Below, piece by piece: positions 4,412-26,238 of a stretch of DNA of 26,913 bases. The first letter of the stretch is position 1. Each line of letters begins with the position of its first letter. Source of the stretch: Pigoraptor vietnamica (taxonomy: Eukaryota; Opisthokonta; Filasterea). The stretch is from positions 1-26,913 of the forward strand of contig CALSCQ010001388.1 in the NCBI GenBank assembly GCA_943704525.1, written 5' to 3'. The notes below the pieces were generated by a model, which saw only the letters and a list, made by a program, of their open reading frames with translations, was not told where the DNA came from and ran no database searches. Made by a program: the position numbers and the translations under genes.

Positions 4412-7400
4412 ATGGCGCTCACTCGCGCAGTGTTCCTGTGCGCGGTTGCGGCGGCGATTGTTGTGGTCGCGCACGCAGCGGCGCCGAGCTCTCCGAATGC
4501 TCGCTGTGAGGACGCCATTCCCGAGAAAGCCGCGAGCATTTTCGGCGATGGAATCGAGGCTTCCCTGTCTTTTGAAGGATTCGTCGACTTTGCCACGGAC
4601 GGCGGTAAGGAGATTGACACGACGGACGGCGGCGCTCTTGCCGATTGCATGGGCAAGTTCGGCCTCGGCGCAAATCGCTTCACGTCGTTCCATTCGATTC
4701 GCCCGGACGGCGACTACATGTACTCGATTGGCTTCTGCAGCCGCGACGCCGCGGACGGCAAGCTCCAGGTGGTCGTGTACGAGGCCGACAGCTGCGACGA
4801 CACGCCCAAGTGCGTTCCCGGGCTTGATGTGACGGGTGATTGCGGCGGCGCGGTTCTGTTTCGCGCACGTCGGGGCGTCCGCTACTTTGTTGTCGTCATC
4901 AACGGCGAGGCGGACCCCACGAAGGTGACGCGCCCCTACAGCCTCGACGTCCACCGCTACGAGTGCAGCGACTCGGGCTCTCTCCGGTGCGACACGGACG
5001 GGACGGCCATTGCGTGCGACGACGGGTACGTGAAGTTTTTCGACAACGACGTTCCGAGGTGCGTCCAGGACGTTTCCATTTCGCGCGTGGGGAATGCGCC
5101 GATCGAAGGCCAGTCGTTTACGATGCAGGCGAACGCGGGCGGCAACGTTCTGAATGAGCCTATCCTCGCGAGCGAGATCACGTGGTATTTCCGCCACGAG
5201 CGCGACGCGGAGGTCACGCAGCTGACGGACCATCCGATCACGAAGTCGCCCACCAACTCTCCCCCCGTGAGCCTCATGACGTCCGGCGCCGGGCCCCTCC
5301 AGAAGCAGCAGCTCGTCATTGACCGCGCGTTTTCGAACTGGCGCAAGTACTTTTTCTCGGCCAAGGTGGAGCGCGGCGGCAAGACGTACTGGTCGCCCGA
5401 GTTCCAGGTGACCCTCAGCACCCTCCGCGCGTTCCCCGTCGAGAGCATCGACAACATTCTCAACGGCAAGACGGTGAGCGAGTACTGGCACCCGACGAAC
5501 AACTGGCCCGCGTTTGAGCGCTACGTCTACTCTGTCAACATTGCCGGCGCGACGGGCACGCGCGTGTACCTCACGGCGCCCGTGTACACGGAGAACAGCG
5601 GCTCGATGACGGTTAAGCGCAACGCCGTGCCGACGGCGGTGGCGACGACGGTCGTCAAGGATATTGGCAACCAGTGGTTCACGGTCATCTGCGACCACGT
5701 GATCCTCAAGTTTGACGGCTCGAGCTACAGCGACGCGGCGACGCGCAAGACGCACATCCAGACGACGCTGGAGACTGCGCTCAAGGCGCTGATGGACGAC
5801 GGGAAGACGACGCCCGCCCCCTTTGGAGTGTCGGTGTACATTACGTCCTCTGTTCCCGCCATTACGAGCGGGCCGTACGAGGTGAACCTCTACGCTATGA
5901 ACTATCGCACGGGCAAGCCGATTGCGCTCGCGGATATTGTCACCGCCATCAACTGGAACGGCAACGCCGCCAGCGCCGGCAGCACGAGCATCTTCACGGC
6001 CGCGACCGTGGGCAAGCTGACGACCGGCACGACCACGACTGGCCCCACGTTTTGCACCCTTCTCTGCTCGGACAACTCTTACGTGACGACGCGAACGGAC
6101 ACGAACGGGTTTGTCGCCGTGGCGCCCGCCGACACGCTCAACCTGGGCTCGCGCTGGAGCATTGAGGCCGCCGACGGGGAGGTGAAGCTCGATGCCCCCT
6201 ACCAGTCGCGCGTCGTCCTCAAGTCGCTCAACACTGGAGCCGCCGCCTTCACGAACAAGTACGTCGCTGCGAACATTGTCCTGTCGAGCGACTTTACGAC
6301 GGTGCAGTCGTCGACCTTCTCGTACGTCGCCGCCAAGGCCGACGCGCTTGTCTTTGAGATTACGAACGCCGCGACGTACTTCCTCTTCACGTCGGACCCG
6401 AGCAAGACGATGCAGTACACGTCGACCAAGTGCCCGCCGCGCTCGTTTGGCAAGTCGGCGACGGATATTAGCACGCCTTCGCAGTGCGCGTCCACGTCGG
6501 TGTTCCCTGCGAACGACCCGACGTACCGCCGCTACGAGATTGACCTCGGCGGCGAGTTTTCGCTCAACGGCTTTGCGGCCGCGACGGCCTACTACACGCT
6601 TGCGGACACGACCAAGACGAGCCAGCGCCCCTTCCGCATTGCCGCGAAGCTGAAGGCCGAGGACGCCTACACGTCGCTCACGACGGCGATTGGCGCGGAC
6701 GAGGGCACGCGGTGCCGCTCGTTTATTCCCAGCCCCTGCCGCGACGCGCCCATTTCCGCGAACATTATCGGCTACACGCGTTCGAAGACGTTCCCCGGCG
6801 GCGTCCGGGACGGCATGCTCGGGTGGCGCTACCTGCGGATCGAGTTTGACACGATGCTCGCCAACATTGCCAAGGTTGCGATCGACCAGCGCTTCTTTAT
6901 CTTTGAGCGCGTCACCGTGGACGGCATGTGCCCCTGCAACGGCCACTCTGGAGCGTGCGACCCGTCGAACGGCTACTGCGCCCTCAGCGTCGGCAACGGC
7001 GACGGCGAGAACCTTGCGTTCACCGACACGACTTCGCTCGGCGAGAACTATCCCGCGCAGTCGAAGGGCAAGGACGCGCTCGTCAACTGCCAGCACCGCA
7101 CGGCCGGCATCAAGTGCGACGTGTGCGAGGTCGGCTTCTACGCGTCGTCGCCGGTCATCAACCACGGCTTCCCCGACGTGACGTACGATCAGATTGGTAA
7201 CCCCTCGATCCCGGTCGTGACGCCCGAGGAAATTCGCAACCTCCAGTTTTTCTACTACGACTTTGACCTCACGCCCGCGCAGACGAACCGCTACATGGTG
7301 CCCGACGACTCTGATGACGGCGTGAACGGCTTTTCGGAAGTGTACAAGCTGTTCTTTGGCAACGGCGAAGTGTGCCGCGTCTGCGAGTGCAACGGCCACG

Positions 7401-10400
7401 CTCGCTCCGAGTGGGATCCCAACGTCAGCCCCTCACTCACGGACCCCTGCGACGTGGAGACGGGCGTCTGCGACTGCCACCCGGACACAAACACGGAGGG
7501 CGACCACTGCGAGACGTGCATGGACAACTACTGCCGTCCGCTCTGCTACGACGACTCGGACCCGAGCTGCTTCCGCTCTGCGTGCTACGAGTGCATGTGC
7601 AACAAGCACTCGATCGGCTACGACGCGGGCGCAAACCAGGACCGCTGCGAGAAGATGGGCTGCGGCTGCGCGTGCGACCCGACGCACAACGTCGACGGCG
7701 CATTCTGCCAGAACTGCAAGTACGGGTACCACAGCGACGACGGCACGGGCCTCGACGGCAAGGTGTGCTCGGCGTGCGCGTGCAACGGACACAAGAAGTT
7801 TGCCGCCCTCGGAGAGGTGCCCGACGGCGTCGACGACCTTGCCGAGTCGTGCAACGCGGTCGCCGGCCACTGCATGCAGAACTGGTACGGCGAGAAGGAG
7901 GCCTGCCTCGACAACACGTTTGGGTCGTCCTGCCAGTACTGCCTCCCCGACTACTACCGCCCTTACCTTGCGGGCACGACGAACATCTCCCCGCGCGACT
8001 CGTGCACCAGCTGCCAGTGCGGACCCTCGGCGGAGGGGCGCGCGCTTGCGGACCGCGGCTACGGGTGGGAGGACGGCAAGCTGGCAACGTGCGACCCGGA
8101 GGGCGGCCAGTGCTTCTGCGACGCCGCGAAGAACGTCAAGCTGAACGAGGAGCTCAACAAGTGCGAGTGCAAGGTTGGCTTCTGGCGGACGCCCGCGGAG
8201 GAGGCCAACGGCGACCCGTGCAAGCCGTGCAACTGCAACTCGCACAAGGACGATGACTTCTGCAACCCGACGACGGGCAACTGCGACGACGAGAGCAAAC
8301 TCTTCGGGGGCCTCTGCAAGGACAACACGCGCGGCGAGAAGTGCGAGCTGTGCATCGACGGCTTCTTCCGCGCCACGGGCGACCCGCTCTCGGCCGGTTG
8401 CGTGCCTTGCGACTGCACGGGCAACGGCGACAAGCTCCAGTCTGGCGAAGACACGTGCAACCCCGTCGGCGGCGCGTGCAACTGCAAGGGATGCACGACG
8501 GGAGCCAAGTGCGACGAGTGCGGCACGAGCTGCTTTAGCCAGCCGACCCGCGCCAACGGCGACAAGCTCGTGAAGGGCGTCCACGTGTGCAAGGCATGCC
8601 GCACGGACAGCTGCAACGGATGGAGCGACACGTGCGACAAGTGGTCCAGCGTCTGCTCGAACTGCGACGCCACGTCGAACACGGGCGGCGACCACTGCGA
8701 CACGTGTAAGGATGGCTACAAGCGCGACCTCTCGAAGGTCGCCTTCCTCGGCGCCACCAAGCCGTGGGACTACACGTTCACGGATGCCGACAACGCCGTT
8801 CTCCTCAAGACGACGTGCGTGCTTTGCCAATGCAACACGCACTCGACCAAGTGCGACGCAAAGACGGGCGAGTGCAGTGCATGCGGCGACAACACGGAGA
8901 ACGACAAGAGCGCCACGGGCACGGCGAGGTGCGACAAGTGCAAGGACAACTACTTCCGCAACAGCGAGGGCTACAACCCGTTCTCGTCGTGCGACCTCTA
9001 CGGCCAGTCGCCTCCCTCTCCCAAGACGGCGCAGGACGTGACGAAGGCGTGCGTGGCGTGCTCGCAGCACTGCTTCCTCGCGGGGGCCGGCGCCACGTGC
9101 ACGAAGTCCAACGGCAAGTGCACGAATTGCCCCACGGGCGCGACTGGCGACCGCTGCGAGCGCTGCACCCCCGGGTACTATGGCGAGCCGAGCAAGGGCA
9201 TTCCGTGCCGCAAGTGCGAGTGCTACGGCCACGAGTCGCCCGTCAACGTCGGCCGCAACGCCGGCAAGAACAAGGAGAACAAGATTAGCCCCCTGCAGCT
9301 CTGCGAGCACGGCGCTGACGCGACGCTGACGAACGTGTGCTTCCTCGAGTACTTGAGCATGGGCGCTGGCCCCGGGTCGGACGCCGAGAAGGCCAAGACG
9401 GACGCGTCGGTCGCCCTCAAGTACGTGCGGTGCGCGTGCGAGCAGGAGACGACGGACAAGGTGACGAACTGGAAGACGGGTCTCCTCATCAACGACGAGT
9501 CGAAGTACACTGGCCGCCAGTGCACGAGCTGCAACGCCAAGCGCTACTACGGCATTCCCACGACGCCGCTCGGCGCCGGTGGCTACGATGTTTGCCACGA
9601 CTGCGTGTGCTACTCGAACATCAACCTGTACGGGACGAGCGACAATTGCGTCACGTCGCTGCTCTCGCCCAAGTGCCAGAACTGCCTCGGACAGACGACG
9701 GGCGACGACTGCGGCACGTGCAAGGACGGATGGTACGGCAACCCGAAGCGCCAGGACCGCGCGGTCCTCGACGGCAGCGGCAACCCCAACAAGTGCTTCA
9801 AGTGCGACTGCAACGGCCAGTCGAAGACGCGCGTGGGTGTCGCATTGGGCATCGCCGGCGACACTTGCATTGGCGTCGGCGCGAACCCGAATCCCGGCGA
9901 CTACAAGTGCGGAGAGTGCCGCCCGGGCTACACGGGCGACGGGTGCGACCAGTGCGCGATTGGGTACCAGAAGTCGACGGCGAATGCCCTCGGCGACGGC
10001 CGCAAGGACAACCTTTACGTCGTCTGCACGCAGTGCGACTCGTGCACTACGGACCTCCTCAACGGAAAGCTCGTGCCCAACCAGCCCATCCTCAACGCCG
10101 TATACGACGGCGTCGCCACGCTCAACGCGTCGGTGCTGACGTATATTGGCCTCGACGGGTCGATCCTCAACGGAAAGCTCACGGACGCGCGGGACGCTGC
10201 GACGGACGCCGTGACCAAGTCGCACGAGGCGCTGAACGCGGCGAACCTGCTCGACACTGCGATTGACCAGCTGAAGAGCGACCAGGAGACGACGATTGGG
10301 AACATTCAGACGCAATTTAACACGGCCAAGCACAACATTGCCGGGGAGGCCGATGCCGACAGCCTGGCGATTATCGCCCTCACGACGGCCATCGGCGCGC

Positions 10401-12466
10401 TCGAGGCGGAGTGGTCGGGCATCGCCGGCGACATTGGGGACGCGAAGACGGCGATTGACGGCTTCTACGACGACGTGACGGCCATGTGGGAGACGCAGAA
10501 GGGCCTGGAGGGCGACATTAACGACTTTGTGACGGGCCGGCTCAAGGCGCTGAAGGACGGCTACGTCGTCAACACTGCGCTCATCGGGAATCCCAACCAC
10601 GCGCGGCGCGAAGTGCCGAACGGCGGCGACGGGCAGTCTCTTGCCGAGCGGATGCGCGCGGCGGAGGACGACCTCGACGACGTGGTTGGCAGGGAGAGCG
10701 ACGGCGTGAACGCGGTGGAGGACGAGCTGAAGGACATTGCGAGCCTGCACAACATGCTCTCCGAGCAGCTCGATGCGCTCGCGAACATTACGGCGCGCCT
10801 GGCCGCGCAGAACGACCAGATCGGGACGCTCCACGACGTCATTTCGAACGAGGTGACGGAGGCGCTGCTGGACCTTGACGGGTCTCTCGACGAGATTGAC
10901 GGGCGCCTGTCGCAGCTGGAGAACCTCGCGACGCCATGCGGGCAGAACCCGTGCGGCACGCGCCTCTGCCGGAACACTGGCGGCGGCCAGTACGAGTGCT
11001 ACTGCAACGACGACGAGTTCGACACGGGTTCGGAGTGCATCAAGATTATGGACCACTGCCACGACGAGGGCGGCGCGGCCGTGTGCAAGAACGGCGCCAT
11101 CTGCACAAACAGCCTCATGGGTTACGAGTGCTCGTGCACGCTCGGCTACCGCGGTGACGACTGCGCGACGGCGTTCCGCCCCTGTGACAGCTCGCCCTGC
11201 GCCCACGGCACGTGCTCGAAGGACAAGAACGACGCCGAGGGCTTTGTGTGCACGGGCTGCCCCCCGTACTACACTGGCCCGCGCTGCCAGTTCCGCCAGG
11301 CGTTTGCGTTTACCGGCACGCAGTGGATTGGGTACGCGGCGCCCACGGCGTTTACGGCCGCCGTCGGCTTTTCGGTCAAGTTTTCGTTCATGACGGAAGC
11401 GAGCACGGGGACGCTCTTCGGGACGTTCCGCCAGGGCTCGTTCCAGGACCACATTGCCGTCTACCTGTACGCCGGTCGCCTCACGTTTTCGTTTGCGCCG
11501 GGCGCCTACAGCGCGTGCAACGAGGACTACACGTCGTGCCCCGGCGCGACGGTGTGGCGCACGGCCGACAAGGTCAACGACGGCGACGAGTATACTGTCA
11601 TGATCACGGTGGCCGCCAACCTCGTGACGATTTCGCTCACGGACGACGACGGCGCCCACGTGGCGGGATCGCCCAAGTCGCTGGATCTGATTACGAAGCC
11701 CGGCGCCGCCGGCACGATCGACCTCACGGGCCCGCTGTACTTTGGCCGCTTCAACCCGACGACGAACAACCAGTTTATCCCGCGCGCGCTGTCGAGCAAC
11801 CCCGGTTTTGTGGGCCACATGTGGGGCGTCTGGCTGTCTGGCACTCCGCGCACGCTCAACGCGGCCGTTGGAGGCGCCGTCACGGATGTGTCGAGCCCCC
11901 CCGCGGCCCTCGAGACGATCGGCAACGGCAACATGCTCGTGTTTGCCGGCGGCGCCTACGCGCGCTTCCTTCCGCGCACGCTCGGCGACGTCTTTGCGCT
12001 ATCGATGTGGTTCTCTGCGTCGTCTGACGGCATTTTGTTTGCGTCGGCCTCGGAAGACGGCAAAGACTACGCCGTGCTCGAGGTGGCCGACGGGAAGCTG
12101 TCGTTTTCGTGGAGCTGCGGCGGCGAGGGTCACAAGATCACGGGCCCGAGCGTCGTCGACATGGGCGCGATCAAGGTCGTCGTGGAGAAGGCCGTGCAGA
12201 CGACGGCGTCTGGCGTCGGGTCAAAGGTGACGCTGACGGCGTCTGGAGCCCTGTCTGCGCAGAGTGCGGTTGATGCGAACGGTCCGCTCGTTTCGATTGA
12301 CAACATGGAGAGCATATGGCTTGGCGGCGCGCCGGAGGAAGTGGCCGGCTCGTCGACGAACCGGGGCATCCAGGGCCGCGTGTGGGCGTTTGCCATCTCC
12401 GGCATGGCAGTGCCTTTTGGGACGGCCGTGGAGGTCGGAGAGGGGACGTTCTACGCCACGCACTGA
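4412..12466 (+). CDS. Laminin-like secreted multidomain protein, single exon
   Basis: Encodes 2684 residues without a detectable intron. The start at 4412 is chosen because it opens a signal peptide (MALTRAVFLCAVAAAIVVVA). Order: residues 25-190, a Cys-containing beta-rich domain resembling pre-peptidase C-terminal (PPC) modules; about 220-350, an Ig-like stretch; about 674-838, a divergent laminin N-terminal (domain VI) region ending RFFIFERVTVDGMCPCNGH, close to the animal junction motif GGRCKCNGH; 840-1880, about 13 laminin-type EGF modules (for example CDCHPDTNTEGDHCETC); CDSC near 1880, where laminins place the cysteines that cross-link chains; about 1885-2172, an Ala/Leu/Asp-rich coiled coil; 2176-2294, three ordinary EGF modules; about 2297-2475 and 2500-2684, two LamG-like domains. 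This is the order of a laminin alpha chain, apart from the extra N-terminal domains, the EGFs after the coil and only two LamG units. A role in extracellular matrix or a cell coat is likely. Trimer formation with other chains is unproven. Two in-frame stops lie 18 nt apart at the end. Confidence 0.93.
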   Translation: MALTRAVFLCAVAAAIVVVAHAAAPSSPNARCEDAIPEKAASIFGDGIEASLSFEGFVDFATDGGKEIDTTDGGALADCMGKFGLGANRFTSFHSIRPDGDYMYSIGFCSRDAADGKLQVVVYEADSCDDTPKCVPGLDVTGDCGGAVLFRARRGVRYFVVVINGEADPTKVTRPYSLDVHRYECSDSGSLRCDTDGTAIACDDGYVKFFDNDVPRCVQDVSISRVGNAPIEGQSFTMQANAGGNVLNEPILASEITWYFRHERDAEVTQLTDHPITKSPTNSPPVSLMTSGAGPLQKQQLVIDRAFSNWRKYFFSAKVERGGKTYWSPEFQVTLSTLRAFPVESIDNILNGKTVSEYWHPTNNWPAFERYVYSVNIAGATGTRVYLTAPVYTENSGSMTVKRNAVPTAVATTVVKDIGNQWFTVICDHVILKFDGSSYSDAATRKTHIQTTLETALKALMDDGKTTPAPFGVSVYITSSVPAITSGPYEVNLYAMNYRTGKPIALADIVTAINWNGNAASAGSTSIFTAATVGKLTTGTTTTGPTFCTLLCSDNSYVTTRTDTNGFVAVAPADTLNLGSRWSIEAADGEVKLDAPYQSRVVLKSLNTGAAAFTNKYVAANIVLSSDFTTVQSSTFSYVAAKADALVFEITNAATYFLFTSDPSKTMQYTSTKCPPRSFGKSATDISTPSQCASTSVFPANDPTYRRYEIDLGGEFSLNGFAAATAYYTLADTTKTSQRPFRIAAKLKAEDAYTSLTTAIGADEGTRCRSFIPSPCRDAPISANIIGYTRSKTFPGGVRDGMLGWRYLRIEFDTMLANIAKVAIDQRFFIFERVTVDGMCPCNGHSGACDPSNGYCALSVGNGDGENLAFTDTTSLGENYPAQSKGKDALVNCQHRTAGIKCDVCEVGFYASSPVINHGFPDVTYDQIGNPSIPVVTPEEIRNLQFFYYDFDLTPAQTNRYMVPDDSDDGVNGFSEVYKLFFGNGEVCRVCECNGHARSEWDPNVSPSLTDPCDVETGVCDCHPDTNTEGDHCETCMDNYCRPLCYDDSDPSCFRSACYECMCNKHSIGYDAGANQDRCEKMGCGCACDPTHNVDGAFCQNCKYGYHSDDGTGLDGKVCSACACNGHKKFAALGEVPDGVDDLAESCNAVAGHCMQNWYGEKEACLDNTFGSSCQYCLPDYYRPYLAGTTNISPRDSCTSCQCGPSAEGRALADRGYGWEDGKLATCDPEGGQCFCDAAKNVKLNEELNKCECKVGFWRTPAEEANGDPCKPCNCNSHKDDDFCNPTTGNCDDESKLFGGLCKDNTRGEKCELCIDGFFRATGDPLSAGCVPCDCTGNGDKLQSGEDTCNPVGGACNCKGCTTGAKCDECGTSCFSQPTRANGDKLVKGVHVCKACRTDSCNGWSDTCDKWSSVCSNCDATSNTGGDHCDTCKDGYKRDLSKVAFLGATKPWDYTFTDADNAVLLKTTCVLCQCNTHSTKCDAKTGECSACGDNTENDKSATGTARCDKCKDNYFRNSEGYNPFSSCDLYGQSPPSPKTAQDVTKACVACSQHCFLAGAGATCTKSNGKCTNCPTGATGDRCERCTPGYYGEPSKGIPCRKCECYGHESPVNVGRNAGKNKENKISPLQLCEHGADATLTNVCFLEYLSMGAGPGSDAEKAKTDASVALKYVRCACEQETTDKVTNWKTGLLINDESKYTGRQCTSCNAKRYYGIPTTPLGAGGYDVCHDCVCYSNINLYGTSDNCVTSLLSPKCQNCLGQTTGDDCGTCKDGWYGNPKRQDRAVLDGSGNPNKCFKCDCNGQSKTRVGVALGIAGDTCIGVGANPNPGDYKCGECRPGYTGDGCDQCAIGYQKSTANALGDGRKDNLYVVCTQCDSCTTDLLNGKLVPNQPILNAVYDGVATLNASVLTYIGLDGSILNGKLTDARDAATDAVTKSHEALNAANLLDTAIDQLKSDQETTIGNIQTQFNTAKHNIAGEADADSLAIIALTTAIGALEAEWSGIAGDIGDAKTAIDGFYDDVTAMWETQKGLEGDINDFVTGRLKALKDGYVVNTALIGNPNHARREVPNGGDGQSLAERMRAAEDDLDDVVGRESDGVNAVEDELKDIASLHNMLSEQLDALANITARLAAQNDQIGTLHDVISNEVTEALLDLDGSLDEIDGRLSQLENLATPCGQNPCGTRLCRNTGGGQYECYCNDDEFDTGSECIKIMDHCHDEGGAAVCKNGAICTNSLMGYECSCTLGYRGDDCATAFRPCDSSPCAHGTCSKDKNDAEGFVCTGCPPYYTGPRCQFRQAFAFTGTQWIGYAAPTAFTAAVGFSVKFSFMTEASTGTLFGTFRQGSFQDHIAVYLYAGRLTFSFAPGAYSACNEDYTSCPGATVWRTADKVNDGDEYTVMITVAANLVTISLTDDDGAHVAGSPKSLDLITKPGAAGTIDLTGPLYFGRFNPTTNNQFIPRALSSNPGFVGHMWGVWLSGTPRTLNAAVGGAVTDVSSPPAALETIGNGNMLVFAGGAYARFLPRTLGDVFALSMWFSASSDGILFASASEDGKDYAVLEVADGKLSFSWSCGGEGHKITGPSVVDMGAIKVVVEKAVQTTASGVGSKVTLTASGALSAQSAVDANGPLVSIDNMESIWLGGAPEEVAGSSTNRGIQGRVWAFAISGMAVPFGTAVEVGEGTFYATH

Positions 12467-17980: not shown

Positions 17981-18351
17981 TGCCAGCGCGCTCTTCTCAA
18001 ACGAACGCCAGCAAAGAGAGTGTCGTCGACGAGTGTTTGGGACTCGCGCTCAAGCGCTGTTTCGGCACGCGTGCGCCGTTTTGGGTCAGTACTTCGTCGG
18101 GCCACGAACTGATGACGTCACGCCAGTCCCTCAGTCCAGCACTCAGTCGAAGTGCGTGTGCGCGCTAGTGTGTGCCGCCTATGTGTGCGCACGTGTGCGC
18201 AATCGAAGTGTGTGCGTGCGTGCGTGTGTCTCGTGTCTATTTGCGCGCACGTGCCTGCGTGTGTGTGCATGAGCACGCGCGCATTGTATGACACCCTCCC
18301 ACCACTTTTCACGCACTCTGCCCTGTCTTCCGGCCTGCGCTGCAACGGGCG
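17981..18351. other. Divergent promoter region of SPRTN and the homeodomain gene
   Basis: 371 bp between two start codons that point away from each other. No gene is supported. It contains a perfect CRE (18113-18120) and GTGTGTGCG-type runs (about 18148-18270), with a pyrimidine-rich stretch before 18352. Confidence 0.6.
18113..18120. promoter_or_regulatory. CRE palindrome TGACGTCA
   Basis: A perfect CRE inside the divergent SPRTN/homeodomain promoter, about 130 bp from the SPRTN start and 230 bp from the homeodomain start. CREs are bound by bZIP dimers of the CREB/ATF type. Confidence 0.5.
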
Positions 18352-19600
18352 ATGAGCGCGCTCGAGGGTGGCGCGCGCACGCGTCGTTTCACGCCCACAC
18401 AGGCGGCGCTGCTGTCGTCCCGCTTTGCCGCCGACCCGCGCCCGTCCACAGCCGCCATCGACGACATTGCGCGGCACACTGGCCTCACCCACGCGCAGAT
18501 ACGAAAGTACTTTCGCAACAGGCGCACGCGTGACGCAGCATCGCACGAAGCGGAGACTGCGCCTGCTAGTGGGGATGGCGGCGTGCAGGCACTCGGAGGA
18601 GGCGCAGCTGACGAACACGCGGGCGCGAGTGTGTTAATTGCGGGAGAGGCGCGCGAAGGGGCGCGACGGAAGGCATTGAAGCGCGCACACGAGGCCGCAC
18701 GTGTGCTACTGGATGCGCTCGCTGGTGTGGGCCCGTCGCGCGATCGCCGCAGTGTGCTGTCCCGGCTGGCGCGTCGGCTGGGTACTCCGGACAAGCGGGC
18801 GCTGAGGGACTCGCTGGGGCTCAAGCCGAAAATTGGCAGCGCAGACCCGTCGCTCAAGGCGTCGACGGTGCGCGACAGGTGCGTGTCAGTGTGGCTGTTG
18901 CGTGGGCTTGAGTACCGAGTTTCCCTCCCGCTCTCGCTGAACGAGCGTTATTGTTAGTCTTCTTCCCTCGTCGCCCACTGTTACTTCCGACACGGTGCAA
19001 TTCCGTGCTGTCGCATGCCTCGATGTGCGAGCTGCCTCCGCGCTTCAACCGCGCGCGATCCCCCAATTCGTCGCATGAATAGCCAACAGAAACCGAATGA
19101 CACCGCACATCCACAGGTCGACACGTGCCTGGCGCGAACTCGAGTCGCTCTTCTGCGCGTCGGCACCCGCCCACTCGGCCCCGGCCGTTCTAGCGCACGC
19201 CACCCCGGAAGATCTCCTCACGGTTTCGGACACCCCGTCTACGGGCGATGCTATGGCGCCAATGTCCCTTACCAGCGATGCCCTCAGCGCGCTCGGACTC
19301 GGCGCGCACGTGGGCCCGCCTCCCATCGGCCCCCTTGCGCCCGCGCTGCGCGCTGCCAACGCCGACATGGTTGCGGGCATAGCGGCCATGCTGGAACGCC
19401 ACGAGGACGTCGCAGTGCTCGTCGCCCGTCGCTTGGGGTTTGAGGACGTGCGGCGGAGGGGCGTGAAGGACCTCGGCATTTGTGTTTCCCGCAAGCGCGC
19501 GCGAACGGACGGCGCGCCCTTGCGGTCCATGGGCTCCTCTTCGAAGGATGGCGACGAACACGACCTCCTGCGCGCTCGCGGCGTGGGAGACCTCACTTAG
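18352..19600 (+). CDS. Homeodomain protein, non-TALE type (2 exons)
   Basis: Exons 18352-18878 and 19117-19600, phase 2, donor GTGCGT and acceptor CCACAG; 336 residues. A 60-position homeodomain without a TALE insertion occupies residues 6-65. Counting from the invariant Asn51 (residue 56), Phe8, Gln12, Leu16, Phe20, Pro26, Leu40, Phe49, Arg52 and Arg53 all fall at their standard places (RRFTPTQAALLSSRF; QIRKYFRNRRTR). The normally invariant Trp48 is Tyr (residue 53). The remainder is Ala-rich and mostly without recognisable domains. A basic helical stretch (ALKRAHEAARVLLDALAGV, about residues 105-123) and a second helical region in exon 2 (MVAGIAAMLERHEDVAVLV) could mediate contacts. A basic KRAR motif near the C-terminus may be a nuclear signal. 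It should be a sequence-specific DNA-binding regulator; class is not assignable by eye. Confidence 0.85.
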
Positions 19601-20001
19601 GGGTCCGGTTGCTCGCTGTGAGATGATGCGATGAATGCTGAGAAGGAAGCACGCCATTACGGGGGACCGACGGGCACTGCTGTGTGCGGTGGTCGGCTGT
19701 GGCGCGCCCTGTCCCCGTGCGCGTGTCCTCAACTCGCCGGGTGCTCCATAGAATCGTGGGACGGGCGAAGGCCCCTTTGGCCGGCTGTGGCGCGCTCTGT
19801 CCCCGTGCGCGTGTCCTCAACTCGCCGTGTGCTCCATAGAATCGTGGGACGGGCGAAGGCCCCTTTGGCGGCAGCGATTCGAATATGTGCGCCGCAATCC
19901 CTGTCTGCGCCGCACGCCGATGGTGCATAAAGAAATGTCGACAGTCGGTTCAATTCACTGTCCATGTTGACCTATATTGTGTTGCTTTGGAGCCACTGCG
20001 A
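19601..20001. other. Convergent 3' region between homeodomain and receptor genes
   Basis: No gene is supported. About half of it is an 88-bp tandem duplication. The rest is 3' flanking sequence shared by the two convergent genes. Confidence 0.5.
19694..19869. repeat. 88-bp tandem duplication, two copies
   Basis: Copy 1 is 19694-19781 and copy 2 19782-19869. Both begin CGGCTGTGGCGCGC and end GGGCGAAGGCCCCTTTGG; only a few positions differ. Near-identity points to a recent duplication. It lies between two convergent genes and contains CCATAGAATCGTGGGACGG in each copy. Confidence 0.93.
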
Positions 20002-22908
20002 CTAGTGCGGCACAACAGCACCCCCCGCCGTCAGAAGGGCGCGGAGGCGAACGGCTTCGTCTTCCAACTGCGACAGTTGTGTGCGCATTTCTGCGTTGTC
20101 CGCCTCAAGGCCATCGACCTCCCTCTGCAGCGCTGTTTCACGCACGCGCTTCTGCTGGCGGGACCTGCGCGACACAGTAACGAATGTTGAGCGCACTCGG
20201 CGGACGGAGGAGAAGTCTAACAGCGGGCGTTCGCAAGCTGTTGCGACCATGCATGTGGGCGTGAAAGTACAGACGTGCGCAGACGTACTTTTGATTGGCC
20301 TCTCTGTGCTTGCGCAGCTTCGTCTCCCGCGGGTCTTCGTCAGACGGCGCTTCTTCCGTCGCCGACATACTCGGCATGGACATGGCCGTGAGATCGGGGA
20401 CACCGTATTCGTGTGCGGCCGGCGGAGTGCTGCCGTCAAGCGACGCTGGCACTGCGACGTCCGGAGGCACAGCGCTGGTGGGCGAGAACGCGCTGCTGTA
20501 CGCATCAGAGCCCGTTGTGTCCCTCGGGGACGTTGCGAGGGCCTGTTGGGCAGCGGAGGGAAGAGTGATGCCCATTGCGGCCGCGTAGTCCATGGGTGTC
20601 TTGCCTGCAGTCAACAGCATCGAGTGATGAGAGGACGTGCGCAACGGCATCGGCAGTATGGGGCGCACAGGAAACTGTGTTGCACAGACGGCGAATCAAC
20701 AAAGCGAGAGGCGGGGAGCAGGATAATACAAAGCGGACGCGTACATTCATGGGAGTGCGGGCCACGCACCTTCATCGTCCGCTAGAGACAAGTTCCCGCC
20801 CGCAAGCACAAGCGCCCCGAGCACTTCTGCGTTGCCCTGTCGTGCCGCCACGCACGATGGCGTCTCGCCGTTGGATGCACGCGCGTTAACGGGGTCAGTG
20901 ACGCCTTCGTCCTCTCCGTTGGGCACACCGTCACGTAGGGGCAGGTACCCGCCGGCCAGCAGCGCCGTCACAACCGCCGCTTCGTTGCTCGCAGCTGCCC
21001 AATGGAGCACGTTCCACTGTCGCCGCGCGTCGCACGTGTGCACGCCCACGCCACGGCCGCTCTGCACTATACGCAAGGCGCAGTCCGGCTGTCCTGTTGC
21101 CACAGCGACGCACAGGGGCGTGCGACCCAGCCCATCCACGCGCTCGCAATCGGCGCCGGCGGCAAGCAGCATATCCACGGCCGCAGCGAAGCCCAGCGCA
21201 CACGCCATGTGCAGCGGCGTGTCCCTCTGGGCATTGCGCACGTCCAAGGCCTTCACTGTCCCGCCCTCTGCATCGGCGGTTGAGCTGAAGTCGCCGCCGA
21301 CAGCAGCGAGTGCCTCCAGCACGAGCGAAACGCACTCGGCCGAACCGCCCGACACTGCCGCGTGGAGGGGCGTCTCCGCGTGCCCGGCACCGCCTGCCCG
21401 CGTGGCGCTTGCGCCGTGCTGCAACAACACACGCACGCACTCAGCGTGACCCAACCGACACGCCGTCAGGAGGGGCGTCTCGCCGGCGACGGTCGGCTCG
21501 TCCAGCAACGCCACTCGCCCGGCAGTCGATAGCCACAGCAGCCGCGCCACACCAGCGCACGAAGACAGGAGGACGGCATCGCCTGCTTCGGCGGCGCGGT
21601 GGATGCCCTCGCGCAGCGCACTTTCGTCCCCCCCTTCGCTGTGCGGCGTCACCACAGTCAGCGGAGTCGCGATTTCCGCCAGTTCCACGTCACCTGCGCG
21701 GCGCTTTTTGTCCGCGCCCGAGCCCGAGCCGTCGCCCGCCGCACCGCCACCGTCCCCGCCGTCTCCGTCGCGCTTTCGCTTGCGGCCGATAAGCCCCTTG
21801 GCAGCCCCCGCGATAATGCCGAATCCCACGGGGACAGCGGTGGCCAGCGTCGCGTTGCCTGCCAGCATGCCGGTCGCCGCCGCACCGACCACCGCGACGG
21901 CACCGACGCCGACAGTGGCAACCACTGTCGCAATGACGGGGATGACGACATCCTTGCCGCTGTCGGTGGACCCGCCCGATGGGGGGTCGGGGAATATCTT
22001 GGTGGCTGTGCGAGGAACGGTGCGCGAGGGTCAGTGGCGCATTCATGGCCGAGTTTCTCAGTCCACAGCGAAACGGCATTGGGTGACGGCGTGCATGCGA
22101 AAGGGACTGCAACAGAACACTAGCCCGGATGCCTAACGGATGTGCGACATCGACCAAACGCCATCGGCGATGCAACCCACCCGAGTAGCACTTGACGCCG
22201 CCGGGGGTCCGCGTGCACGGCGTCGATGTGTCTGGGAGGGAGAAGTTTCCCGCGAACAGGCAGACGGGGGTGCTCGCGGGGCACGGCTGCTCTTGAAAGA
22301 GTATGCCGCCGTTACACCAGTGGTACCCAGCGCAGTCCACGCCGCAGTAAAAGTTGCCGCTGATGCACGCGACTGCGCGTGGTTATGGCAGATAAAATGA
22401 GTCACTTAACAGGCGCAAAGGGACACGATAAATGCAACGAGTCTCCTAACAAGCGCAAAAACGCCACATGCGAGGCCGCAAAAAACCCATCAGATTCGAA
22501 CCCACAGCTGTACTGCCATCCCCCGACCAGCGTGCTCGTTGACCCGTTCGTCTGCGAGACAACGACGTCCAGCGGACCCGACGTCGTGTCAGACCACACA
22601 TGTCGCCACTCTGCCGACCACGCGGGGACGATGCACGCGGCCGCCGTCCAATTCGCGGCGAACCCAAGCGCGTTCGACACTTTGAGGCATGGCATCGAGT
22701 GCCCATAAGAGTCGCGAATGGTGATCGAGCTCACGGACGTCAAGTTGGTGCCGGTTAATGTCGCCACGTACTGTCCCTGCCACGAGTTCTGCGGCGCGGT
22801 GAACGACGCGAGCGAAATGGACGCGCGCGCAGTTGCGAGAGACGCCGCGACAACGAGCAGCAGGTACGCGAGCGCCCGCGGGCTCGCACGATTGCGTCTA
22901 TGCCGCAT
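20002..22908 (-). CDS. Predicted membrane receptor with intracellular ankyrin repeats and C-terminal bZIP (5 exons)
   Basis: Minus-strand exons 22908-22506, 22372-22181, 22005-20770, 20604-20289 and 20164-20002; phases 1, 1, 1, 2; 769 residues. Signal peptide 1-29 (LAYLLLVVAASLATARA). Residues 30-134 are an IPT/TIG-like beta domain (GQYVATLTGTNLTSVSSITI). Residues 137-196 hold eight cysteines and a chitin-binding type 2-like pattern (C148, Y151, C154, NGG, CP, C172). Four sequons (N55, N86, N121, N177) fit a secreted side. A wholly uncharged stretch at 218-246 is the membrane span; a second hydrophobic stretch, 250-271, precedes RKRKR (273-277) and KKRR (298-301). Seven to eight ankyrin repeats run from about 326 to 625 (AGETPLLTACRLGHAECVRV; DTPLHMACALGF). 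One is split by intron 3 and restored on splicing (ADDEG then KTPMDYAAAMG). The bZIP is 705-760, with a basic region split by intron 4 and a zipper of L728, L735, M742, L749, L756. The split ankyrin repeat and split bZIP bind exons 3-5 firmly into one gene; joining exons 1-2 rests on phase, signal peptide and topology. Likely role: a membrane-held transcription factor released by proteolysis. Confidence 0.82.
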
Positions 22909-23358: not shown

Positions 23359-24958
23359 TTACTGCATCGACGACCCCTCGCGCAAATACTCGACAAACTC
23401 ATCCAAGAGAACGGGCCCTGCGAGCGCACGCAGTGTTACTTGCGTTAGTTACAGCGGTTCAACTGGGGCAGTGTCGGCTGCAGCTGTTTCAGTCACGTGA
23501 CTCACACGCCGCCATCTCGTCGTAGTTTGAGAGATCCCCCTGTATGGTCGAGCTGAATTCGAGTATGCTCATCCACTGATCCTTGTTGACCACCTTATAC
23601 GACACCGTCTGCGGCGTGAATGCGGCACACAGGTTACATGGGACGGAACGAGGGGATCCAACGGTGCCAGAGGACACACACGGTTCGCACTCACCCCAAG
23701 AAACTGCACAAACTGGTCAAGAGACTGCCAGCGGCCAGCAAGCAGCAGCGAGAGCATTGCCTTGGCTGTCTCCATCTCGAGGCTCTTTTGGGAGGGATCG
23801 CGCGCAAAGTCAAAGGAAAAGCGGTAGAGCTCCTTGAACTCTGCCGGCGTGATGTTGGGCAGCGAGGGAAGGAGGGCGCGCATCTTGTCCGCCGTGTCGC
23901 AGCTGCAGACGTCGCACGTATTGCTCGTGAACATGGATGCAGCAAGACATGCACACACGAGCGTCGCGTATTGCGAAGGCGATTGCACGAACAGCATACG
24001 ACAAATGCGCTGTGCGCAACAGAGGGGCCGTGAAGGCAACGGGAGACCGACGCACCCCAATTTTTGCATTCCGGACATCCACTCTGCCTTAGTAAGGTAG
24101 CCCATAGTGGCGGCGTTTAACCGCCACGCAATGATAAGCACAACCACCTGCCGTGACGGTCGGTAGGTAGTAAGTAACACTCGCGCAGAGAACGTGCGCA
24201 CACAGAAAGTGCCACTGAGACGCAATGCAAAGTGGGCGAACATGCACTCACGTGCTCGGGTGCGACGCCGATATCGCGACAAAAGGCCTCGATGCCCTCG
24301 GGTCCAATTCTCTCGGCGTCTTCGTCGACGTACGACGCGAACCAGTTGGCGCAACGCTCGAGCGAGAAGACCGACATGTCCTATGGAAGAGAGCATGTGG
24401 GCAAGGATGTTAGTGACAATCCAGCGATATAGGTGCGCCCCATGGGACAGCAAGAGGTCACAGTCGCAGGTTCATGGACGAATGGGGACGTGAATCATAC
24501 ACGCACACCAATAATATTACTTGAGCCAAACAGTACATTAGTCATTCTCACAGGTAGGCACAGCCGCAGAGAAAACATCGATGGCTCCCATCACACAGAA
24601 GTAAAAAACAAAGACGCATCCACGCACCTCTTGTTGGGCCCTGTTGCAGAGGAAATTTGACAGCGCGTCAGTCCGAAGCATTGTCCACATCGCGTGAAAT
24701 GAGAGGAGATGCCACAACACGCGCACGATAACATGCGCGCGTGTACTGACACACACAGAGTGGACCATTCCGCACATCCGCCTCTCCCTTTAACGACTGC
24801 ATTCACGCTGTCATATCCACTCCACAACACACACAACACACGCACCTCCCACGGCGCCCATGTGACTGGGTGACGGCGGGCACAGTGGCTTCATCGTCGC
24901 CCTTCCGCCGCTTGCTCGCCCGCGTGGCAGCCTCACTGCCGCCGCGCTTGCGTGTCAT
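23359..24958 (-). CDS. DCUN1D5: DCUN1D4/5-type cullin neddylation factor (7 exons, one a 13-nt micro-exon)
   Basis: Minus-strand exons 24958-24846, 24640-24628, 24380-24252, 24147-24056, 23902-23695, 23608-23506 and 23417-23359; phases 2, 0, 0, 2, 0, 1; 238 residues, close to human DCUN1D5. DCN1-family proteins help UBC12 attach NEDD8 to cullins and so activate cullin-RING ubiquitin ligases. Residues 1-42 are basic and nuclear-signal-like ([16 protein letters not shown]), as in DCUN1D4/5 and unlike DCUN1D1. The PONY (potentiating neddylation) domain covers 45-235: [115 protein letters not shown]. Several of these are interrupted by introns and restored exactly by splicing. The first exon and the micro-exon are less certain. 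A shorter protein starting at Met44 (24377) would keep the whole PONY domain. The symbol means DCUN1D4/5-like, not strict orthology. Confidence 0.92.
24628..24640 (-). other. Predicted 13-nt micro-exon of the DCUN1D-type gene
   Basis: Sense sequence GGCCCAACAAGAG, preceded by TTTCCTCTGCAACAG and followed by GTGCGTG. Exon 1 ends in phase 2 and exon 3 begins in phase 0; these 13 nt (1 + 12) bridge the two and add Arg-Ala-Gln-Gln-Glu. Without it the exons are out of frame. Confidence 0.65.
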
Positions 24959-25616: not shown

Positions 25617-26238
25617 ATGCTCGGCCGCAACTCGGGCGGTGGCGCGGCCATGGCAACGGCGAATGGCCCTGCGGCGCTTGCGGGCGTCAAGGAGATCAAT
25701 GCCAAGTTGACGACGAGCGAACTCATCACGCGCCTTAAGGTTGGGCGTCACGCGCACTTGCGCCACTCGTGCCGAGTGTGAATAGGCTCTGTGTTTATTG
25801 TGTGTTAATGGTGCGAAGGAGCGATAAGTGAGTGCAGTGAAGCGAGGGAGTGATGCATGTCCCCGTCCTTTCTACGTGTCTGTCCTGTGGGGACACTTAC
25901 AAACTTGTCAACTTTTGCGTCGCTCACCCACGCACCTGCGCAGGCGCTCATGAGCGTGCTGTCCGAGGCGGACCAGGAGGCCAACACGGCGCAGATTCAG
26001 CCCTACGCGGCGAGCCTGGTCAAGAGCGGCATCATCCACCACCCGGACAGGGACGTGCGCCTGCTCGTCGCGTGCTGCCTCGCGGACGTGCTGAGGATAT
26101 TTGCGCCCGATGCGCCGTACACAGAGTCTGACTTGAAGGTGGGGAGGTGTTCGTTAATGACTTTCACTGCTGGGAATGCATGAAGCACAAACTATATGCA
26201 CGGCGTTTTCTGCCAGCGCACATTGCGCGCACACGCAG

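Follow-up and report, generated by a model that had tools for sequence, protein, structure and literature searches.

In the filasterean Pigoraptor vietnamica, a single gene seems to encode a type I membrane-held transcription factor, in which an ectodomain is followed by a single membrane span, a pair of basic clusters, an array of seven to eight ankyrin repeats, and, at the C-terminus, a bZIP, and which would originate from exon shuffling and be released from the membrane by cleavage. We give this reading a probability of roughly 0.6. The DNA analyzed, referred to here as the window, is the whole of contig C567 (26,913 nucleotides), and the genome searched comprises 32.5 Mb in 1395 contigs. 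The order of outside domain, span, ankyrin repeats, and bZIP that a preliminary description of this DNA had proposed is favored, as far as sequence can tell, by the gene model and the ectodomain and intron phases shared with two paralogues, and by a clear span followed by Arg/Lys clusters, whereas some doubt about it comes from the join of exon 2 to exon 3 and from a second, only weakly hydrophobic stretch. If this order is correct, one protein would be sensor and gene switch at once, a type I receptor ending in a bZIP being about the shortest possible route from the surface to the gene. Such routes could then originate by exon shuffling, and presenilin would gain a substrate, open to testing, that does not belong to the Notch family.

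Gene model and the junction between exons 2 and 3

Five exons of the minus strand, running from 22908 to 20002, are joined by predicted splicing into an in-frame chain of 769 residues (translation of the joined exons), with the start ATG at 22908, before which the ORF list shows no Met in that open frame, and the stop at 20002. The introns measure 133, 175, 165, and 124 nt and have the phases 1, 1, 1, and 2 that had been proposed for them; their donors (GTGGGT, GTGGGT, GTGCGT, and GTACGT) all fit GTRNGT, and CAG ends each of the four acceptors. This five-exon structure is thus borne out by consensus splice sites, and the host appears eukaryotic from its introns and genes. The parts of the gene are as follows.

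22506..22908, minus strand: exon 1 of the gene model, signal-peptide-like start and first half of the ectodomain
22908-22819, minus strand: signal-peptide-like start, aa 1 to about 30, recognized by eye from a basic start and a hydrophobic core
22372-22181, minus strand: exon 2, Cys-rich module of the ectodomain (63 complete codons at 22182..22370)
22006..22180, minus strand: intron 2 (phase 1), whose splicing the proposed architecture requires
20770..22005, minus strand: exon 3, one open frame with a short linker, the membrane span, the basic clusters, and most ankyrin repeats
20289..20604, minus strand: exon 4, last ankyrin repeat, linker, and start of the bZIP basic region
20002..20164, minus strand: exon 5, remainder of the basic region, leucine zipper, and stop codon

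For intron 1, the alternatives 22486/22359 and 22501/22359 also keep the frame, but they were set aside, having neither a donor consensus nor the position shared with the paralogues.

Exons 3 to 5 belong together, since one ankyrin repeat is divided between exons 3 and 4 and the bZIP basic region between exons 4 and 5. The weakest link of the gene model is the predicted junction between exons 2 and 3. When both GT and GC donors are allowed, 54 in-frame joins of these two exons are mechanically possible, so the frame alone proves little; among them, 22180 is the only donor that fits GTRNGT, and it suits acceptor 21924 as well as 22005. Two adjacent genes could therefore be envisaged, with exons 1 and 2 beginning a surface protein and exon 3, or a further exon hidden upstream of it, beginning an independent ankyrin-bZIP factor, and it would agree with this arrangement that the paralogues of exons 1 and 2 end in different 3' parts and that a Met occurs at residue 245, inside exon 3. 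However, such a division seems rather unlikely. The gap between exons 2 and 3 is just 175 nt and resembles the other introns (124-165 nt), the intron 2 donor, GTGGGT, stands where both paralogues have a phase-1 donor, and exons 1 and 2 alone would be left without a membrane span. In exon 3, Met245 is the first Met, and a stop lying 25 nt before the acceptor keeps its frame from extending further upstream (ORF list). Moreover, the part of exon 3 that precedes Met245 has a coding-like score. Its span-bearing residues 200-244 reach +0.20 per codon, with a GC3 of 0.80, and resemble the neighboring gene parts, since the remaining parts of the ankyrin-bZIP gene score between -0.45 and +0.39, with an out-of-frame row for the last third of exon 1 left aside; the introns score -0.56 to -1.31 per codon in all frames. 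Among 6,998 open 45-codon frames elsewhere in the window, some of them coding, the mean was -0.98 and the 95th and 99th percentiles were 0.01 and 0.78, and residues 200-244 fall between these two percentiles.

Other features lie in the same contig. Upstream of the ankyrin-bZIP gene are a frame with a cullin-binding (DCN1-type) domain (window 23569-24471, minus strand, E 3.5e-11) and a PDS5 frame (window 25854-26183, plus strand, 3.4e-23), and directly downstream is a tandem pair of 88-nt copies with 97% identity (window 19690-19865). The window also contains a homeodomain frame (18292-18957, plus strand, PF00046, E 2.1e-11) and an open frame of 2,684 aa (4412-12466, plus strand) in which laminin EGF (E 1.9e-21) and laminin G (8.8e-17) domains were recognized and for residues 20-900 of which no relative was found at E 1e-10 among 7,999 candidates.

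An ectodomain module and its paralogues

The two-exon ectodomain module was found in three genes of the genome, on contigs C567, C1332, and C770, whether the query was the window protein or the C770 ectodomain; these searches scored the best candidates only and the gene counts are lower bounds. The ectodomain can be considered a real module because two further genes of the same genome carry it.

L039 2662-5459, plus strand: C1332 paralogue, a mucin-like surface protein
L040 7739-3062, minus strand: C770 paralogue, a mucin-like surface protein

Exon 1 is 30% and 34% identical to its counterparts in the two paralogues and exon 2 is 41% and 43% identical, and in all three genes introns 1 and 2 were read by eye as phase 1 at matching places. 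In the paralogues, the module leads into a long stalk rich in Ser and Thr, after which come one span and a short tail; neither an ankyrin repeat nor a bZIP was seen in the frames listed for them, and their contigs are absent from the bZIP matches and from the ankyrin matches listed (150 scored of 460 candidates). Exon shuffling classically involves modules with a phase-1 intron on either side, and the arrangement here suggests that a surface module was shuffled onto a cassette of span, ankyrin repeats, and bZIP, most likely through a phase-1 intron.

The identity of the module is less clear than its existence. The preliminary description saw an IPT/TIG-like domain in the first half, but up to E=10 no Pfam family, PF01833 included, matches exon 1 of any of the three members or the first 330 residues of the window protein, and C567 is not among the 35 TIG matches in the genome; the IPT/TIG label, without HMM support, remains a by-eye resemblance and was dropped. 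For the second half, a Cys-rich module common to the three genes is retained, whereas the chitin-binding label is not, with exon 2 reaching CBM_14 (PF01607) at E=0.034 and 14.7 bits, below the cut-off of 22.1, and in one of three members. Profile searches against the PDB gave weak matches only (E 1.2 and above for exon 1, E 0.2 and above for exon 2), and residues 1-330 have no relative at E<=1 among 7,997 candidates of the protein collection.

A recent, functionless chance chimera or a decaying gene could also account for the gene, and neither the genome searches nor those of the protein collection found a second gene of the same domain order. Nevertheless, this explanation is very unlikely in view of an intact frame of 2.3 kb over five exons with good splice sites, of ankyrin and bZIP domains that exceed their cut-offs, and of paralogues that are only 30-43% identical; because of this low identity, the fusion need not be recent.

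Predicted membrane span, ankyrin repeats, bZIP, and possible release

Between the ectodomain and the ankyrin repeats, the following features can be placed.

21881..21949, minus strand: predicted membrane span, aa 218-240, at the Kyte-Doolittle maximum
21770..21784, minus strand: basic cluster RKRKR, aa 273-277 (translation), stop-transfer or nuclear signal
21698..21709, minus strand: basic cluster KKRR, aa 298-301 (translation)

The highest 19-residue Kyte-Doolittle mean, 2.42, is found over residues 218-238, and the spans of the paralogues are more hydrophobic (3.44 and 3.08), which calls for some caution. Thus, the span announced at 218-246 is predicted at about 218-240, but the uncharged stretch to which it belongs is longer and covers 50 residues, 218-267. 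A second, weaker hydrophobic stretch, at 245-272, reaches a maximum of 1.56 and contains Pro257 and Lys268. The PDB profile search with the span region gave matches only at E 0.057 and above. Both basic clusters are where they had been described, and in Notch1 a similar pair of basic clusters occurs between the span and the ankyrin repeats. From a signal peptide and one span, a cytosolic C-terminus is predicted; a model with two spans and the C-terminus outside appears less likely.

The ankyrin repeats, for which a number of seven to eight had been given, are confirmed as ankyrin by Pfam (Ank_2, E=1.5e-33); their best matches are designed and generic ankyrins, and no Notch chain occurs among the best 60 of 240 matches. 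The bZIP, over residues 703-757, exceeds the Pfam cut-offs of both bZIP_1 (E=1.6e-6, 28.5 bits versus 27.6) and bZIP_2 (E=6.9e-6, 26.5 bits versus 22.3), and it aligns to the ATF-2, NFIL3, and FosB chains with E values of 0.0025, 0.0083, and 0.0085. Its zipper has the heptad positions L728, L735, M742, L749, and L756, with Asn739 inside, so that the bZIP stands, but its heptads are not perfect, one of the five positions being Met. Given the exon model, the predicted chain therefore combines a DNA-binding domain and a membrane span.

The basic region of bZIPs usually contains an Asn, the position of which is occupied here by His710 in the alignment to known bZIPs. The other bZIPs of the genome mostly keep the Asn (11 of the 13 basic regions readable by eye, from 29 other loci). 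The closest among them (E 6e-7), C489 (G000:C489:31739-31897, L023), likewise lacks the usual Asn and is possibly a partner or the source of the window bZIP. Within about 1.5 kb of the 29 other bZIP loci, C489 among them, no ankyrin match was found; these loci derive from 32 other matches, three of them without a locus, and are shorter where they reach contig ends. In addition, residues 560-769 yielded 16 proteins at E<=1 in the protein collection (7,776 candidates), each listed with ankyrin families and without a bZIP family.

The genome encodes a presenilin at C92 (seven matches there), with GLGD and PALP motifs and with last residues that align to human presenilin-1 (E 1.2e-16), and an Aph-1 at C314 (9.7e-23), so a Notch-type release is plausible. 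Nicastrin had no genome match with two models, and control searches with them were likewise without a match. For the site-2 protease (PF02163), no genome match was found either, a result to be read knowing that the family matched 14 of 14 controls, all prokaryotes, and that introns could hide a gene. Gamma-secretase is therefore the best candidate for the release, considering the encoded presenilin and Aph-1 and the lack of a site-2 protease match. In the proposed mechanism, an outside event would cause the loss of the ectodomain, and an intramembrane protease, with presenilin as the best candidate, would then cut the span. The freed ankyrin-bZIP fragment could subsequently enter the nucleus and may bind DNA as a dimer.

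It is also conceivable that the protein is as modeled but that its ankyrin-bZIP part is not released and acts at the membrane, for instance as a tethered dimer partner that keeps another bZIP from the nucleus, or that the hydrophobic stretches form a hairpin. The 50-residue uncharged stretch, the second part of which reaches 1.56, would fit such a behavior, as would the His in place of the usual Asn, which could weaken DNA binding. However, the second stretch is weak and interrupted by Pro257 and Lys268, the basic clusters come after it, as on the cytosolic side, and presenilin and Aph-1 are encoded, all of which makes retention at the membrane unlikely.

Comparison with known membrane-bound regulators

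No membrane protein with both ankyrin repeats and a bZIP was found described in the open-access literature searched. The statement that no described family has such a domain order thus holds within the open-access literature and the protein collection searched, where the order of this putative membrane-bound transcription factor was not found described. A survey of membrane-bound transcriptional regulators, mainly of vertebrates, recovers Notch, ATF6, CREB3L, and SREBP in the excerpts available (PMC12724719, PMC13294678).

The closest resemblance in the ectodomain is to the C1332 and C770 proteins, which share the two exons and the matching phase-1 introns of the window gene but continue with a Ser/Thr-rich stalk, a strong single span, and a short tail, with no ankyrin or bZIP seen. 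Yeast Mga2 and Spt23 have a C-terminal tail anchor, are freed by proteasomal processing, and lack a bZIP and a secreted-side part. They resemble the window protein as membrane-linked transcription regulators with ankyrin repeats, and they sense lipid packing, according to an excerpt of PMC9118731. With ATF6 and CREB3-type factors, the window protein shares a bZIP held at the membrane by one span; however, in ATF6 it is the N-terminal cytoplasmic part that is released (PMC12724719, in excerpt), whereas the window bZIP (703-757) is C-terminal to the span (218-240), with the ankyrin repeats between them. NF-kappaB p100/p105 and the NF-kappaB of the protist Capsaspora likewise combine a DNA-binding domain with ankyrin repeats in a single chain, and the Capsaspora protein can enter the nucleus once its ankyrin part is removed (PMC8677719, in excerpt). 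In this type, however, a Rel homology domain takes the place of the bZIP, the ankyrin repeats are C-terminal, and no membrane span is reported in the part of PMC8677719 available.

Notch has the same type I order of an outside part, one span, basic residues, and ankyrin repeats. It is defined by EGF, Notch (LNR), span, and Ank domains in that order (PMC6040629, in excerpt), whereas the window gene has neither an EGF nor a Notch domain (no Pfam match to either up to E=10); moreover, Notch works through RBPJ (PMC9118731, in excerpt), whereas the window protein would have its own bZIP. It is about an even bet that the gene encodes a type I receptor resembling Notch but equipped with a DNA-binding domain of its own, and that this receptor would have received its surface module by shuffling onto the cassette, be released by presenilin, and have evolved apart from both Notch and the type II membrane bZIPs.
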